Part shown: one piece after another, positions 29,213 to 44,167 of the stretch
Layout: the number at the start of each line of letters is the position of its first letter
How positions within the stretch are numbered: the stretch's first letter is position 1
Program-made: the position numbers and the translations under genes
Assembly (NCBI GenBank): GCA_030248135.1
Contig: JASANC010005147.1
Location: 1 to 64,000 of the forward strand
Reading direction: 5' to 3'
Origin: Theristus sp. LFF4_11
Lineage: Eukaryota; Nematoda; Chromadorea; Monhysterida; Xyalidae
Length of the DNA: 64,000 nucleotides
Notes under the pieces: generated by a model
Told to the model about the DNA's origin: nothing
Seen by the model: only the letters and a program-made list of their open reading frames with translations
The model's database searches: none

Positions 29213-32200
29213 GTGAGCTGGAAACCGTGCGAGTGGTGGGCACGGATGAAGTGGTGGAGCAAGTTTTGGAGTTTTTGTGTGTTGCTCTGATGCAAAGTGA
29301 TACAACGAGTCCGCAACCTGGGATTCAGGCAGAGCTGTTGAATTCAAACAAACAAACAAGCAATGCGCAATCAGAGCAGCCATGAAATTCGCCCCATGCC
29401 CCATGCCGGCGGTTCAATTCGTGCCCGCCCACTAGTTGCCGATCGTTGTCCTTGTTTTATTCATTGTATTCAGTTTCATGAATGTATTTTCTGTGAATAA
29501 CCCATTGCACAGGGTTTTTTTCATCTGAAGTGGTTCAAGAGGGACACATCACTGATGAGGCCACCCCTCTTCTGCATATGATGTTGGCCAGGCCGAAATG
29601 CAGAGAGCCATCCAACAACTTGGTTGATTTGTTTGTTCAGGCTCAACAGTGTCCAGCAATCCGGCCGCAAACAGCAACAGCACAATGACGCGCGGTTCAC
29701 CGGCGATGTTGCTAGTGAACGGGCATCATCATCATCAGCAGCAGTTGTACACCCCGCCGCCGGGCACGACGTCAACGGGGCGTGCGCCGCCCAATCGGGG
29801 ATCGCCGAGCATTGCGTCCAGCTCCGTGTCACCCGCCGCTCCGGCCGGCGCGACGTCGACGCCGAAAACCGCCGCAGGTTCGCGTTTTTACGGGCGCTGT
29901 TCGGTTCGCTGGGGAAATGGTTTTTTTGGAAATTTTCAGCAAATCGATTTTGGAAAGAATAAAGAATGTCGTTTCTACATTTTTTTATTTGTTGTTCGCA
30001 CGCCGGTTCCGGAGACCATAAGGTACCAAACTCCGGCGGAAACGGGCAATACTGCCCCCGAGCCCAATTTACCCTCGGCTCTGGAGGGAGTAGATCATTA
30101 GATGTTGTTGGTCACTTTCGTTTCTCCATTGTGTGTGTCTTGTCCGCAGCGGTTGGAACTTTTTGGAAGTTTTTGGATTTTTGGAACTTGTGTAGCAGGT
30201 GGATAGTCTCTGAGCAGGCAGTGGTTCAGTTCAGTCGTGACAGCTCAAAGCTGAAACCCTTTAGCCGCAATATGCTTTACAGCGCGCCTCATCTCAGTGG
30301 ACGGCAGCGGCAGTGGCGCGGGCGGGCCCGGGCCGGCACACGAGTTGATGGAGTTCACATCGCCTCCCGACCACCATCATCCGCATCAGCATCATGTCGC
30401 ACATCAACCAACGTCCTCGATGCATCAGCAGTTGCATCTGTCGGCGGCAGCACCGTCCACATCCACCACGCCGAGTCACCACTCTGCCAGTTCGTCAATG
30501 TCGATGCAGTTTGACGAGTCGCTGGCGTCGTCGAGTCTGGACGGAGTCGCCACGTCAACCGTCACACCGGCGACAAAGAAGACCAGGGCGAAAGGTGAAC
30601 GGCGATTTTCGCTCATTTTTGCTCGGTTTTATTTGTTCGTTGTTGAGATTTGTTTTTAATTTGCGCGGTTTTTGGAAGGTGGATTGAGGTTCAGTGTACG
30701 TGAACGGTTTGCGTGTTTTTATATGGTTGGTAGTCATTTTGAACTTGAATTTCAATTTCAATTTGAATATTTTTCCGCTTTTTGTGCCCATTGTTTTCAT
30801 TCTCAGCCATTTTTCCACGTGCACTCTTTCCAGGCGAATCGTGCGGCCAACAATGCGAGTTCGTCGACCCGGAGAAGCCGTGCCGACAACGTGCCATCTC
30901 CAACTATCGCTACTGCATTCGGCACATTCTGAACGATCCGGACTCGCCCTACCGTCCGTGCGTGCACAAGAAGAAACAGAAAAGTCAGTACACACACACG
31001 CGCTCTTGGTTGGCTCGTTCGTTTTTGTTGTTGTTGAGATTTTTAGGCGATGTTTTTTAGCCAGGGCTAACCCAGAGAAGCGTACAGAACGCCATTGAGT
31101 AGGGCGCCCATCGAGTTTTCTCTGTCATTAAGTGCCTATACACCCCTCGGCGGGGCTCGATCCCCCGAGCGCACAGACTGTAGTCTAGTGCACTACCACC
31201 ACGCCACGAGGCGATCAGTACGCACACGCGCTCTTGGTTGGCTCGTTCGTTGACATTTTATGATCAGCCAATGTGCTGGTGTGGTGCGTGTTGAAATAAA
31301 TCCTAAATCTAAAAATGTGATCATGCTCGCAATTTTTTTTTTCTTGCAGAGAAAGGCGACAAGGAGGTGAACTGCTCGAACCCGGTGCGCAAAGACCAAG
31401 AGCTCCCATACTGCAGTACGCATCTGATTCTGCTCGGCATCAAGGAGCCGAAACGCAAAACTTCTAGCGGCGGCGCGTCGAGCGGCATCGCACCGCATCC
31501 GTCGCAGCAGCCGCAGACGCCCTGCTCGGACGACATGGACCCGTCGGTGGCGGCGATACTGGCGGACCAGCAGTTTGCGGACCACACCGGTGGGGCCAGC
31601 GGCGGCATGCTGCTGATGAACGGGCCCGCGCACGCGCACATGCTCATGGGACCGCCAGCGCCGTCCTCTGTTGATCTGCCGTGTGATCTGACGAATCTGG
31701 ACAGCGCAACGTGCGCGCCGCATGACGCTAACAACAGTAACAATAATAATAATAATTTATTGGGCAACGCTTTCGACGCGCTGCCGTCGCCGACCGGCTC
31801 GGCGATCCTGAGGTCGAACGCGCACCAGTCCGTGCAGCAGGTTCGTTTATCGGTTTTGGTGTGGCGGGTTTTGTTTGTTCGGTTTTTTGTGCTTTTTTGG
31901 GTGCGCGAAAGCGGTGCGTTTCTGTACGTTTGCGACGAGTCATCAGAAGTGCGCGGTCTTTGCACGCGGCTTTTAATTGTGTATTTTTTTATTTCATTTC
32001 ATTTTATTTTGCCAACCGCAGGAAGTCCGATAAAACTGCAAGAACAGCGTATCAAACGGACCCAGTGTATGATACAGGGCCTGTATGTAATGTCACGACT
32101 TCTAATGTAATTATTGGAAAGCACCTGACTTCTTTGAAGGTAATGAGCGGTGATTGGCTGTTGCCTGATGGCCAATCAGCGATGAGCTCCAACGTACCAT

Positions 32201-35200: not shown

Positions 35201-38200
35201 AGGTTGTTGATTTCTGAACCCTGGCTCATGGTATCTCGCGGTCGTTTTGTGATTGACTCGGGACGAGATGCTCAGGCGAGATTTCAGTTTTGTCACGTTC
35301 ATTTATTGATCTGTGAAAATTCATTTTGTAATTGTTCTCTTGCAACAATTCTGAACGTCACGTGCCAGAACTTTGCCGCCTTTCCTTCCTATCAGTTCTC
35401 GAGAGTCACTGGAAAACTCAGGGTGTCTTCCAGCATATTAGTCTCCTCAACAATATCCTGAGGCGCTTTATTGTCGCATGCAGCAAATTACGGGAACATT
35501 ATAGAGACACAGCACTATTTTTTTGTGGTAGCCAGCAAGTTTTCACTGAATATCAGGGCATTGGGCAGTGAGATCATGGCGAGACCCAACGATTGAAACC
35601 ACCCTACTTAGTGCGTCCGGGCTTTGTGGTTCACTCGGTCTAGACGTTGTGTGCAAGCAAGCAGATGATATTATGCGCGTTCGAAGCGCGTGATGATTGC
35701 TCTTAGCAGCTGCCTAGACTTGCACTGAAATTATCGTAACTTTTGAAATTGTTTCATGTTTCGTCTGATGATGTTTACTGACTGTAGTTTCCTTTTTATA
35801 ATTTTGTTTTATTATTGCACCTGTCATACACGTATTATCACGTGAGAGTTTTTCAAAAAAAACTGAGCAAACGTCACGACGACATGCAACGGCTGCCCAG
35901 TTCCATCGACCGACCCCAACAACCGTTCGAACATGTGGTTGTCAGTCACCGCTCGTGGCCTGGTGGTAGTGCGTTAGACTGCAGTCTGTGCGCTCGGGGG
36001 ATCGAGCCCCGCCGAGGGGTGTACAGGCACTTAATGACATAGGAAAACTCGATGGGCGCCCGACTCAATGGCGTTCCGTACGCTTCTCTCGGTTAGCCCT
36101 GGCTAAAAGACATCGCCTAAAATCCCATCATCAACAACATTTCAGAGAGCAGCACGTGCGTGTTGTCGTCGTCCACGATGACCACGAGCACACCGGCAAA
36201 GGCGAACGCTGCGGCTGTCTCGTTTCAACCGCCCGGCGCCCCGATGCCGCTGTCCGCTGCAGCCCCGTCGCTCTCGCACGGCCATGCCGTCGTTGCCGGG
36301 GATCCCGCGAATTTGCCGTCGTTTTCACCGATTTGGCCGCAGCAACAACAACAGCAGCAAACACAGCAACCGCCGCCACAACAGCCGGTCGTTGCAGTAA
36401 TGGTATGTGGCATTGGCATTTCATGATTTTGATCACATCACTGATGAGGCCACCCCTCTTCTGCATATGTCATGTTGGCCAGGCCGAAATGCAGAGAACC
36501 ATCCTACAACTTGGTTGATTTGTTTGCCTTTGAGATTGTTTTTGTGCTGCGTTTATTGGCGGTTGTTTTTTTGTTTTTTTTGCGGTTTACCATGTCGTCA
36601 TTATTATCGGCTTTTGTTGTGAGCGAATGTTGACAACCGATTGATTCCGGTGCATTTGAATTGTCTGAGCTGATCTCGCTCTGACTGGTAGCACTCGGAG
36701 GGTTGGTTCTCTGTTTGCATTTCGCTCAACTGTGATTTCGGAGACAAGAACATCAAAGTTCGGAAAGGAAAACCAATATTGTTTTTTTTTAAATTCTGGC
36801 ACGGATCTACTAAACTGATGTGGTGCACACAGTTTGTATTATTCATTGTCAGTGCTCTGATTGATTGCATATTTTTTTATTATTGCGTATTTAATTGCAC
36901 CGTTTTTGCTCACTCAGTCGCAACAAGCGCCGGCTCCGGTGCAGTTCGTACAGCAGCCGCCCGGTCCCGTGGTGCCGAAGTTGAGCTCATCATGCTACGC
37001 CGCTGCGATCATACAGCAGCGACGACGACAACAGATGGGCGGTGAGTCTCCGTGCTTTTTAGGTTTTTGTATTCAAGTGGTTCAGGAGGCGCACATCACT
37101 GATGAGGCCACCCCTGTTCTGCATATGATGTTGGCCAGGCCGAAATGCAGAGAACCATTCCACAATTGGTTGATTTTTTTGTTGTCGCGGTGGTCTGATG
37201 GTCATCAACATTTGTAAGCTGTATCGGCCGATTGCGTCGTGGTCGTGATTTGCTGTACTGCTGATTGGTCGGTCTTTACACTTGAATGCCCGTCAATCGA
37301 TCGCACGAGCATTGCATGCAGAAACGCACGGCTCTTTTGAAATACGGGCTACTAGAGTTTAGTAATCTCGTTACGGTGAATACCGTATTACCTCTATTAA
37401 ACCCCCCCCCAAAATTAAACCCCCCCCCCCAAAAATAAACCCCCACCCCCTCGACAAGTTTCCAAATAATCCCCCCCCCAAAAATAAACCCCCATGGGGG
37501 TTTATTAGAAACCTGTTTGAAACACATACCTAGCGAATTCAGTGGCTGAATGCAGTGACATTGGTGAAATTGTGCTACCAAAGGCCCCAAAGGGATGAGT
37601 TGGCGGTAATTTCATTACAAAAGGCTGTTACCAAAGGAAATCTCTGTGAAAAGTAGAAGTTTCTGCGACTTCCTTCCTGCCATGGAAGGTATTTTTGCCA
37701 TTTTGCCCACCCCTAAAAATGGTTTCCAAATAAACCCCCCCCCCAAAAATAACCCCCCCCCCCAAAAATAAACCCCCACCCCCAGAAGTCGCTGAAGAAA
37801 TAAACCCCCATGGGGGTTTAATAGAGGTAATACGGTAGTGATTACGAGAGTGGGTGTGAGCACTCGCACCAGCAAACAAATCGGATCGCAGTGACCGTGT
37901 GGTGTTGAAGGGGGATTTAGCATTCAGGTTTTTGTGCGTACGCCCGGACACGCGACACTTAAAAAATCGGCCACACGATTTAGAAATCCTGTCGTGTGTG
38001 CTGTCTTAATGCATTACGAACACAATTGGTTGGCGCACACGATTTAGAACGACGTCTGTGCGTACGGACGAAAAACTAAATGGCGTTTTCACCTTGAGTG
38101 ATCCGATCATCATGTCTTTGACATTTGCAGAAACCAAATTTCATTTGCAGAATTTTTTCGCCAATATTCTGCAAATTGCAGAACCGACTTTTTTGAAAAA

Positions 38201-44062: not shown

Positions 44063-44167
44063 AAGTGATTCAAGAGGGGCACATCACTGATGAGGCCACC
44101 CCACTTGTGCATATGATGTTGGCCAGGCCGAAAGGCAGAGAACCATCGTACAAATTGGTTGATTTGC
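44063..44167 (+). repeat. family D repeat copy 4, in the predicted 3' UTR
   Basis: Lies 80-185 bases after the INO80D-like stop codon. ACATCA (44081), CTGATGA (44087), GGCC, GTGCATA, TGATGT (44114), GGCC and GAAA (44130) are kept. Stem III is weakened because GGCAG replaces TGCAG. Confidence 0.55.

Follow-up and report, generated by a model that had tools for sequence, protein, structure and literature searches.

A dispersed, retroelement-like repeat of a nematode genome carries a predicted hammerhead ribozyme with the strand order of type CSG

The window analyzed here is a 64,000-nucleotide stretch of the genome of the nematode Theristus sp. LFF4_11, and four copies of a short dispersed repeat are spread across it. 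In the first copy, the repeat core occupies positions 29528-29631, and direct reading of the letters locates all conserved parts of a hammerhead ribozyme at 29546-29603, each adjoining its stems. An earlier sequence-only reading of this DNA had reported the same parts, and its letters and coordinates agree with ours. In the nomenclature of Eckert, Friedrich, Weinberg and Weinberg (2023; PMC10085705), who define blocks C, S and G, the CUGANGA strand (C) is followed in the repeat by the cleavage-site strand (S) and then by the GAAA strand (G). The sequence-only reading had described this order as S1-S3-S2 and taken it to be unknown; that part no longer holds, as the same order is named type CSG in PMC10085705.

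We scanned the window with a descriptor covering both strands and all six block orders, which required 5/4/4 bp or more in the stems and allowed one GU pair per stem and a span of 110 nt at most. It matched exactly twice, at 29547-29602 and 37094-37149, both times in the order C-S-G and within the repeat; no hammerhead of classic order was matched in the window. The parts of copy 1 are as follows.

29531..29536, + strand: closing stem, 5' strand TGGTTC (sequence; fold)
29537..29543, + strand: helix bridging stems I and II, 5' strand AAGAGGG (sequence; the chance of at least 7 bp with linkers of at most 2 nt is 0.0024)
29546..29562, + strand: block C, with stem I 3' strand ACATCA at 29546-29551, core CTGATGA at 29552-29558 and stem II 5' strand GGCC at 29559-29562 (sequence; descriptor match)
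29565..29571, + strand: helix bridging stems I and II, 3' strand CCCTCTT (sequence; same chance figure, 0.0024)
29572..29584, + strand: block S, with stem III 5' strand CTGCA at 29572-29576, U16.1 (T29577), A17 (A29578) and stem I 5' strand TGATGT at 29579-29584 (sequence; descriptor match)
29585..29590, + strand: linker from stem I to stem II, 6 nt, TGGCCA (TGCCAA in one copy group; copy-group comparison)
29591..29603, + strand: block G, with stem II 3' strand GGCC at 29591-29594, GAAA (G12 A13 A14 A15.1) at 29595-29598 and stem III 3' strand TGCAG at 29599-29603 (sequence; descriptor match)
29605..29610, + strand: closing stem, 3' strand GAGCCA (consensus GAACCA; sequence; fold)

The four copies in the window are these.

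29454..29631, + strand: copy 1, a 5'-truncated copy of the dispersed element with the 3' end ...TTGGTTGATTTG (alignment to other genome copies)
36434..36526, + strand: copy 2, which starts just before block C, lacks the 5' strand of the bridge and has a 2-nt insertion in stem I (not a descriptor match)
37075..37176, + strand: copy 3, with core and stems I-III intact and two bridge mismatches (descriptor match)
44063..44166, + strand: copy 4, with the catalytic letters intact and two stem III pairs broken (not a descriptor match)

In copy 1, stem I has 6 bp, stem II 4 bp and stem III 5 bp plus the U16.1-A15.1 pair, and in copies 1 and 3 the three stems directly adjoin the core with 6/4/6 bp. 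From these letters, cleavage in copy 1 is predicted 3' of A17 (A29578). The bridging helix, which is 8 bp long in the consensus and 7 bp in copy 1, is set off from the core by linkers of 1-2 nt. The sequence-only reading had proposed two kissing hairpins; this fits the description of type CSG (PMC10085705), except that AAGAGGG and CCCTCTT form not a plain hairpin but a helix that connects stems I and II at their outer ends. The closing stem TGGTTC/GAGCCA is an additional element absent from that reading. The two loops have TGATG(A/T)(T)GGCCA in common, and GGCC can pair with itself, which leaves stems I and II partly interdependent; the earlier caution about TGATG recurring within CTGATGA was a fair one.

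In both the consensus and copy 1, nested folding recovers stem III together with the closing stem and the bridging helix. The stability of single-sequence folds is unexceptional, with z = -1.75 for the consensus and values of -0.95, -0.36 and 0.42 among three of the window copies. When stems I and II are added to the nested stems, the main consensus reaches -33.6 kcal/mol, compared with -31.6 in its best nested fold; the corresponding values are -30.6 and -28.1 for copy 1 and -33.3 and -29.4 for copy group C. These sums leave out any pseudoknot loop penalty and hence serve as a plausibility check only. Chance expectation was estimated from 1.366e9 simulated bases generated by a first-order Markov model with the dinucleotide make-up of the window, both strands being counted and local duplication lying outside the model. 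The descriptor found no C-S-G match in these bases and four matches in any order (three GSC and one GCS), which corresponds to ~4e-4 chance matches in any order for a stretch of window length; relaxing the stems to 4/3/4 gave 40 matches over all orders, 6 of them C-S-G. The chance of a bridge between stems I and II of at least 8 bp, with linkers of at most 2 nt, is 0.0007. As expected from the changed strand order, the Rfam hammerhead models gave no match at gathering scores over the window, nor at E-values up to 10 over 29400-29720.

According to PMC10085705, type CSG comprises two similar metagenome sequences, both of which cleave in vitro at the predicted site with kobs of 0.004 and 0.026 per min. 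Their bridging helix lies in cis, they cleave during transcription, for which the published in vitro conditions are 25 mM Mg2+ and 37 °C, and their products measure 48/49 and 29 nt including flanks. Covariation is modest, and the authors rate the evidence of biological relevance as weaker than for type SGC, for which 583 sequences were predicted and five tested ones were active; one weak GCS candidate is also described (PMC10085705). In the open-access literature, with preprints and subscription journals outside the scope of the search, we found no other report of the C-S-G order. Judged by these published descriptions, the repeat resembles type CSG in its block order, all conserved core letters, stems I-III, the helix between stems I and II and similar product lengths, the predicted products here being 42 nt from the bridge to the cleavage site and 25 nt from there to the end of stem III. 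It differs in that the published sequences are two, known from metagenome DNA only and with no named host, whereas the repeat described here is retroelement-like and has hundreds of copies in an animal genome. Type SGC (HRIMA-1 and variants) likewise has a non-circular permutation and a helix bridging stems I and II, but, in the same paper, its block order is another and it is known from metatranscriptome contigs with hairpin ribozymes, presumed to be RNA circles.

The dispersal of the repeat was assessed across the genome (159 Mb in 3744 contigs). The 17-base C block has 299 exact matches genome-wide; 19-base probes allowing at most two mismatches gave 616 matches for the C block and 854 for the G block, and control probes of reversed pattern gave none. 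As a prediction, the earlier suggestion of a hammerhead-like triple pseudoknot in a dispersed repeat holds up. In viral and prokaryote contigs, no relative turned up in scans for exact 18-mers.

The 3' end of the element is fixed near the sequence given for copy 1, and the 5' starts of 75 copies are scattered over positions 1-184 of a 229-nt query in a survey that kept only copies reaching the 3' end of that query. Such a fixed 3' end with graded 5' truncation is typical of target-primed insertions that have lost part of their 5' side. The copy in L038 is flanked by a 17-nt direct repeat, the one clear long target-site duplication. Flanking direct repeats of at least 8 nt occur in 3/74 copies (17, 10 and 8 nt) versus 14/727 mismatched controls, with means of 5.36 and 5.11, so that target-site duplications in general are not established. 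The longest stretch common to places other than near-identical duplicates is 428 nt (L004 and L071), and no obvious partner gene appeared among the open reading frames listed for six loci, which were read without a domain search. In its fixed 3' end, graded 5' truncation and single long target-site duplication, the repeat resembles SINEs and other non-LTR retroelements; it differs from them in that neither a poly-A tail nor a partner LINE was found and in that longer copies contain a run of 7-8 T, so that transcription by Pol III seems improbable. Classic hammerheads of types I-III are also carried by retroelements, such as retrozymes and Penelope-like elements. With these the repeat has in common a hammerhead core on eukaryotic mobile repeats, but the classic types are circularly permuted without core pseudoknots, and the repeat matches no Rfam hammerhead model.

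Some copies lie close together on the same strand (36434 and 37075 in the window, and pairs in L040 and L081); another close pair (L050, again in L090) is on opposite strands, and no regular tandem unit was seen. Seven places (C3123, C2693, C1930, C1276, C1035, C988 and C874) match the diverged L050 query with identical coordinates, identity and score (45-117, 78%), and C3608 is near-identical in this respect (79%), a pattern as if these places lay inside a larger duplicated unit; the fetched member of the group (L098, from C3608) is 5'-truncated inside block C. Upstream of copy 2, at ~35945-36139 of the window, lies a second, unrelated repeat of ~200 nt, which is 91-93% identical in L029 and L047 and 81% in L068.

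We then compared copies at loci that had been retrieved through DNA similarity, an exact 17-mer, an open frame or a diverged copy. This yielded 79 distinct aligned copies, 75 of which span the core, the remaining four being left out as too partial; selection by similarity to one core, by the exact 17-mer and by one reading frame favors conserved cores in this sample. Scored for the letters that a hammerhead requires (CUGANGA, GAAA, U16.1-A15.1 and H17) and with insertions left uncounted, the catalytic letters are intact in 54/75 copies, in the consensus and in 4/4 window copies; the core together with all pairs of stems I-III, free of insertions there, is intact in 33/75. Differences per site, counted without the 17-mer-selected loci L031-L060, were lowest in the catalytic letters (9/557, 1.6%), followed by stem I (14/606, 2.3%), the closing stem (17/567, 3.0%), stem II (13/408, 3.2%), stem III (17/510, 3.3%), the bridge (34/785, 4.3%), other unpaired positions (45/728, 6.2%) and the tail (83/976, 8.5%). 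Single changes at paired positions kept pairing in 56 cases and broke it in 94; two of three double changes kept pairing, both in one decayed copy, and all come from one genome. Decay within individual copies thus looks neutral.

Letters at positions 60/62 and 83-88 sort the copies into six groups (26, 20, 10, 5, 4 and 7 copies, with 3 left over), whose differences at those positions therefore exist by construction. Apart from that, every group consensus has the same catalytic letters and stems I-III, and the consensuses diverge solely at position 11, where an A-U pair of the bridge becomes G.U, and at positions 88 and 92. One core common to all copy groups is what a ribozyme lineage would show, here in a sample biased toward conserved cores and at few positions. 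The sequence-only reading had named uncompensated stem variation genome-wide as an observation that would speak against it; in this genome, the copies decay neutrally and the copy groups have one core.

At the cleavage site itself, a G at position 17 should block hammerhead cleavage. G17 occurs in 7/75 copies and in 15 of the 100 listed among 250 otherwise exact places, a count that may include small insertions, which some G17 strings represent. Among 277 otherwise exact places genome-wide, 27 are without T at U16.1, of which 24 keep A at position 17 and 3 do not. We considered and rejected the idea that insertions start at the cleavage site, since A17 is retained in 24 of these 27 places; the 3' cleavage product is accordingly not a common template for new insertions. 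Among the 75 copies, none starts at the predicted cleavage site, in a sample mostly fetched by or with block C and therefore hardly able to show such starts. A selected mutation hot spot at the cleavage site, suggested by the 27 cases versus 7 and 6 at two control positions, was likewise discarded, because small slips in ATATG / GATGATG give the same strings. Of 37 strings compared, 14 differ from CTTCTGCATA; insertions account for three of these (L006, L038 and L059) and a genuine change at U16.1 for one (L031). The neighborhood of the site, CATATGATG (window 29572-29590 and its counterpart in other copies), is slip-prone, with insertions in window copy 2 and in L006, L038 and L059.

Some copies lie in or beside host genes. 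The copy in L012 is in sense within an Abl-like tyrosine kinase gene (L012 818-2640; best PDB matches ABL1, E ~5e-50), and that in L080 is antisense beside RPS3 exons (L080 1141-1458). These two genes point to an animal genome; the Abl exon looks nematode-like, the best RPS3 matches do not seem to be nematode chains, and the nematode SL1 leader gave no exact match. In the window, a + strand open reading frame with a zf-C3Hc3H domain lies at 30782-31060 (PF13891, E 2e-9), so that copy 1 is probably in or near an intron of that gene. With AT skew as a proxy for host transcription, no orientation bias was found (41 flanks negative and 31 positive; mean -0.010, s.e. 0.009).

Taken as a whole, the repeat is probably, in our moderately confident judgment, a type-CSG hammerhead family, non-circularly permuted, in a short element spread by non-LTR-type retrotransposition, with cleavage predicted from the sequence. 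We infer the pseudoknot fold and cleavage for the intact copies as follows. Hairpin A of the + strand RNA (consensus AAGAGGGG/CCCCTCTT) would present ACAUCA-CUGAUGA-GGCC in its loop, and the adjacent hairpin III (CUGCAU/AUGCAG) would present A17-UGAUGU-linker-GGCC-GAA in its own. The two loops would pair through stems I and II to form the hammerhead core, with the stem of hairpin A keeping these two stems joined at their outer ends, and cleavage 3' of A17 would leave a 2',3'-cyclic phosphate and a 5'-OH. As the cleavage site is not where insertions start, our best guess is that cleavage would serve to process longer host transcripts carrying a copy, and not to make the retrotransposition template.

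A more far-reaching reading, which is possible but which we advance only tentatively, is that of an active retrotransposed CSG family in an animal genome, which would be the first natural host and the first large family of the type. The metagenome CSG sequences would then come from relatives, and cleavage-dead lineages (G17, small slips at the cleavage site) would spread beside active ones, arising and spreading because cleavage cuts the element RNA in two.

Three other explanations were weighed. The repeat may represent a short retroelement RNA that is structured without being catalytic, its two hairpin loops resembling a hammerhead core by chance. Neutral decay of the copies, the persistence of G17 copies and insertions that do not start at the cleavage site would all suit such an RNA; the repeated TGATG..GGCCA eases chance formation of stems I and II, and about one chance match in any of the six orders is expected per 159 Mb genome when the simulation is scaled up. 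We nevertheless regard this as unlikely, given that the simulated bases held no C-S-G match and the window expectation is so low even for any order, that the bridging helix adds a further factor of ~0.002, and that the catalytic letters vary least. It is far less probable that the hammerhead works in trans, blocks C and G of one copy combining with block S of another RNA or of a neighboring copy so that the normal strand order is restored. Copies are numerous and some lie close on one strand, as the pairs at 36434/37075 and in L040 and L081 do, but the published CSG ribozymes (PMC10085705) act with a cis bridging helix during transcription, and the repeat has neither a regular tandem unit nor a consistent orientation of close pairs (L050/L090).

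We give the least credence, next to none, to a dispersed protein-coding exon fragment with coincidental RNA features, one frame of which reads VVQEGHITDEATPLLHMMLARPKCREPSYNLVDL. That frame is without a stop in 146/150 scored places, themselves selected by the same protein; variants common to at least three copies fall on codon positions 1/2/3 in the proportion 6/2/12 without the pattern loci and 17/7/16 in all loci, and 41/100 codon changes in protein-selected copies are synonymous. In pattern-selected copies, however, only 35/159 codon changes are synonymous, below the 29% random expectation, and 32/36 indels break the frame; in DNA-selected copies 7/30 changes are synonymous, and Pfam, PDB and protein-database searches returned no relative. 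A protein-coding reading of the open 34-codon frame (start at window 29530) was accordingly rejected on its neutral codon changes in pattern-selected copies and its want of relatives, and a diverged copy that had seemed synonymous (L050) was dropped as coding support, being frame-shifted in its full letters. The second codon positions of this frame carry few of the variants common to at least three copies (2/20, or 7/40 in all loci), which a ribozyme does not explain. This codon-position result, together with a group comparison that is partly by construction, weakens both the type-CSG family that we favor and its more tentative form as an active family.

The strand order itself is already known, and the novelty lies in where it is found: a repeat of retroelement character in an animal genome, with far more copies than before. 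If the repeat is indeed a CSG family, its hundreds of copies in an animal would give type CSG a host and provide material for covariation and structure work. The family would also offer a natural test of the folding of a hammerhead with crossing stems and add a new ribozyme form to those found on retroelements.
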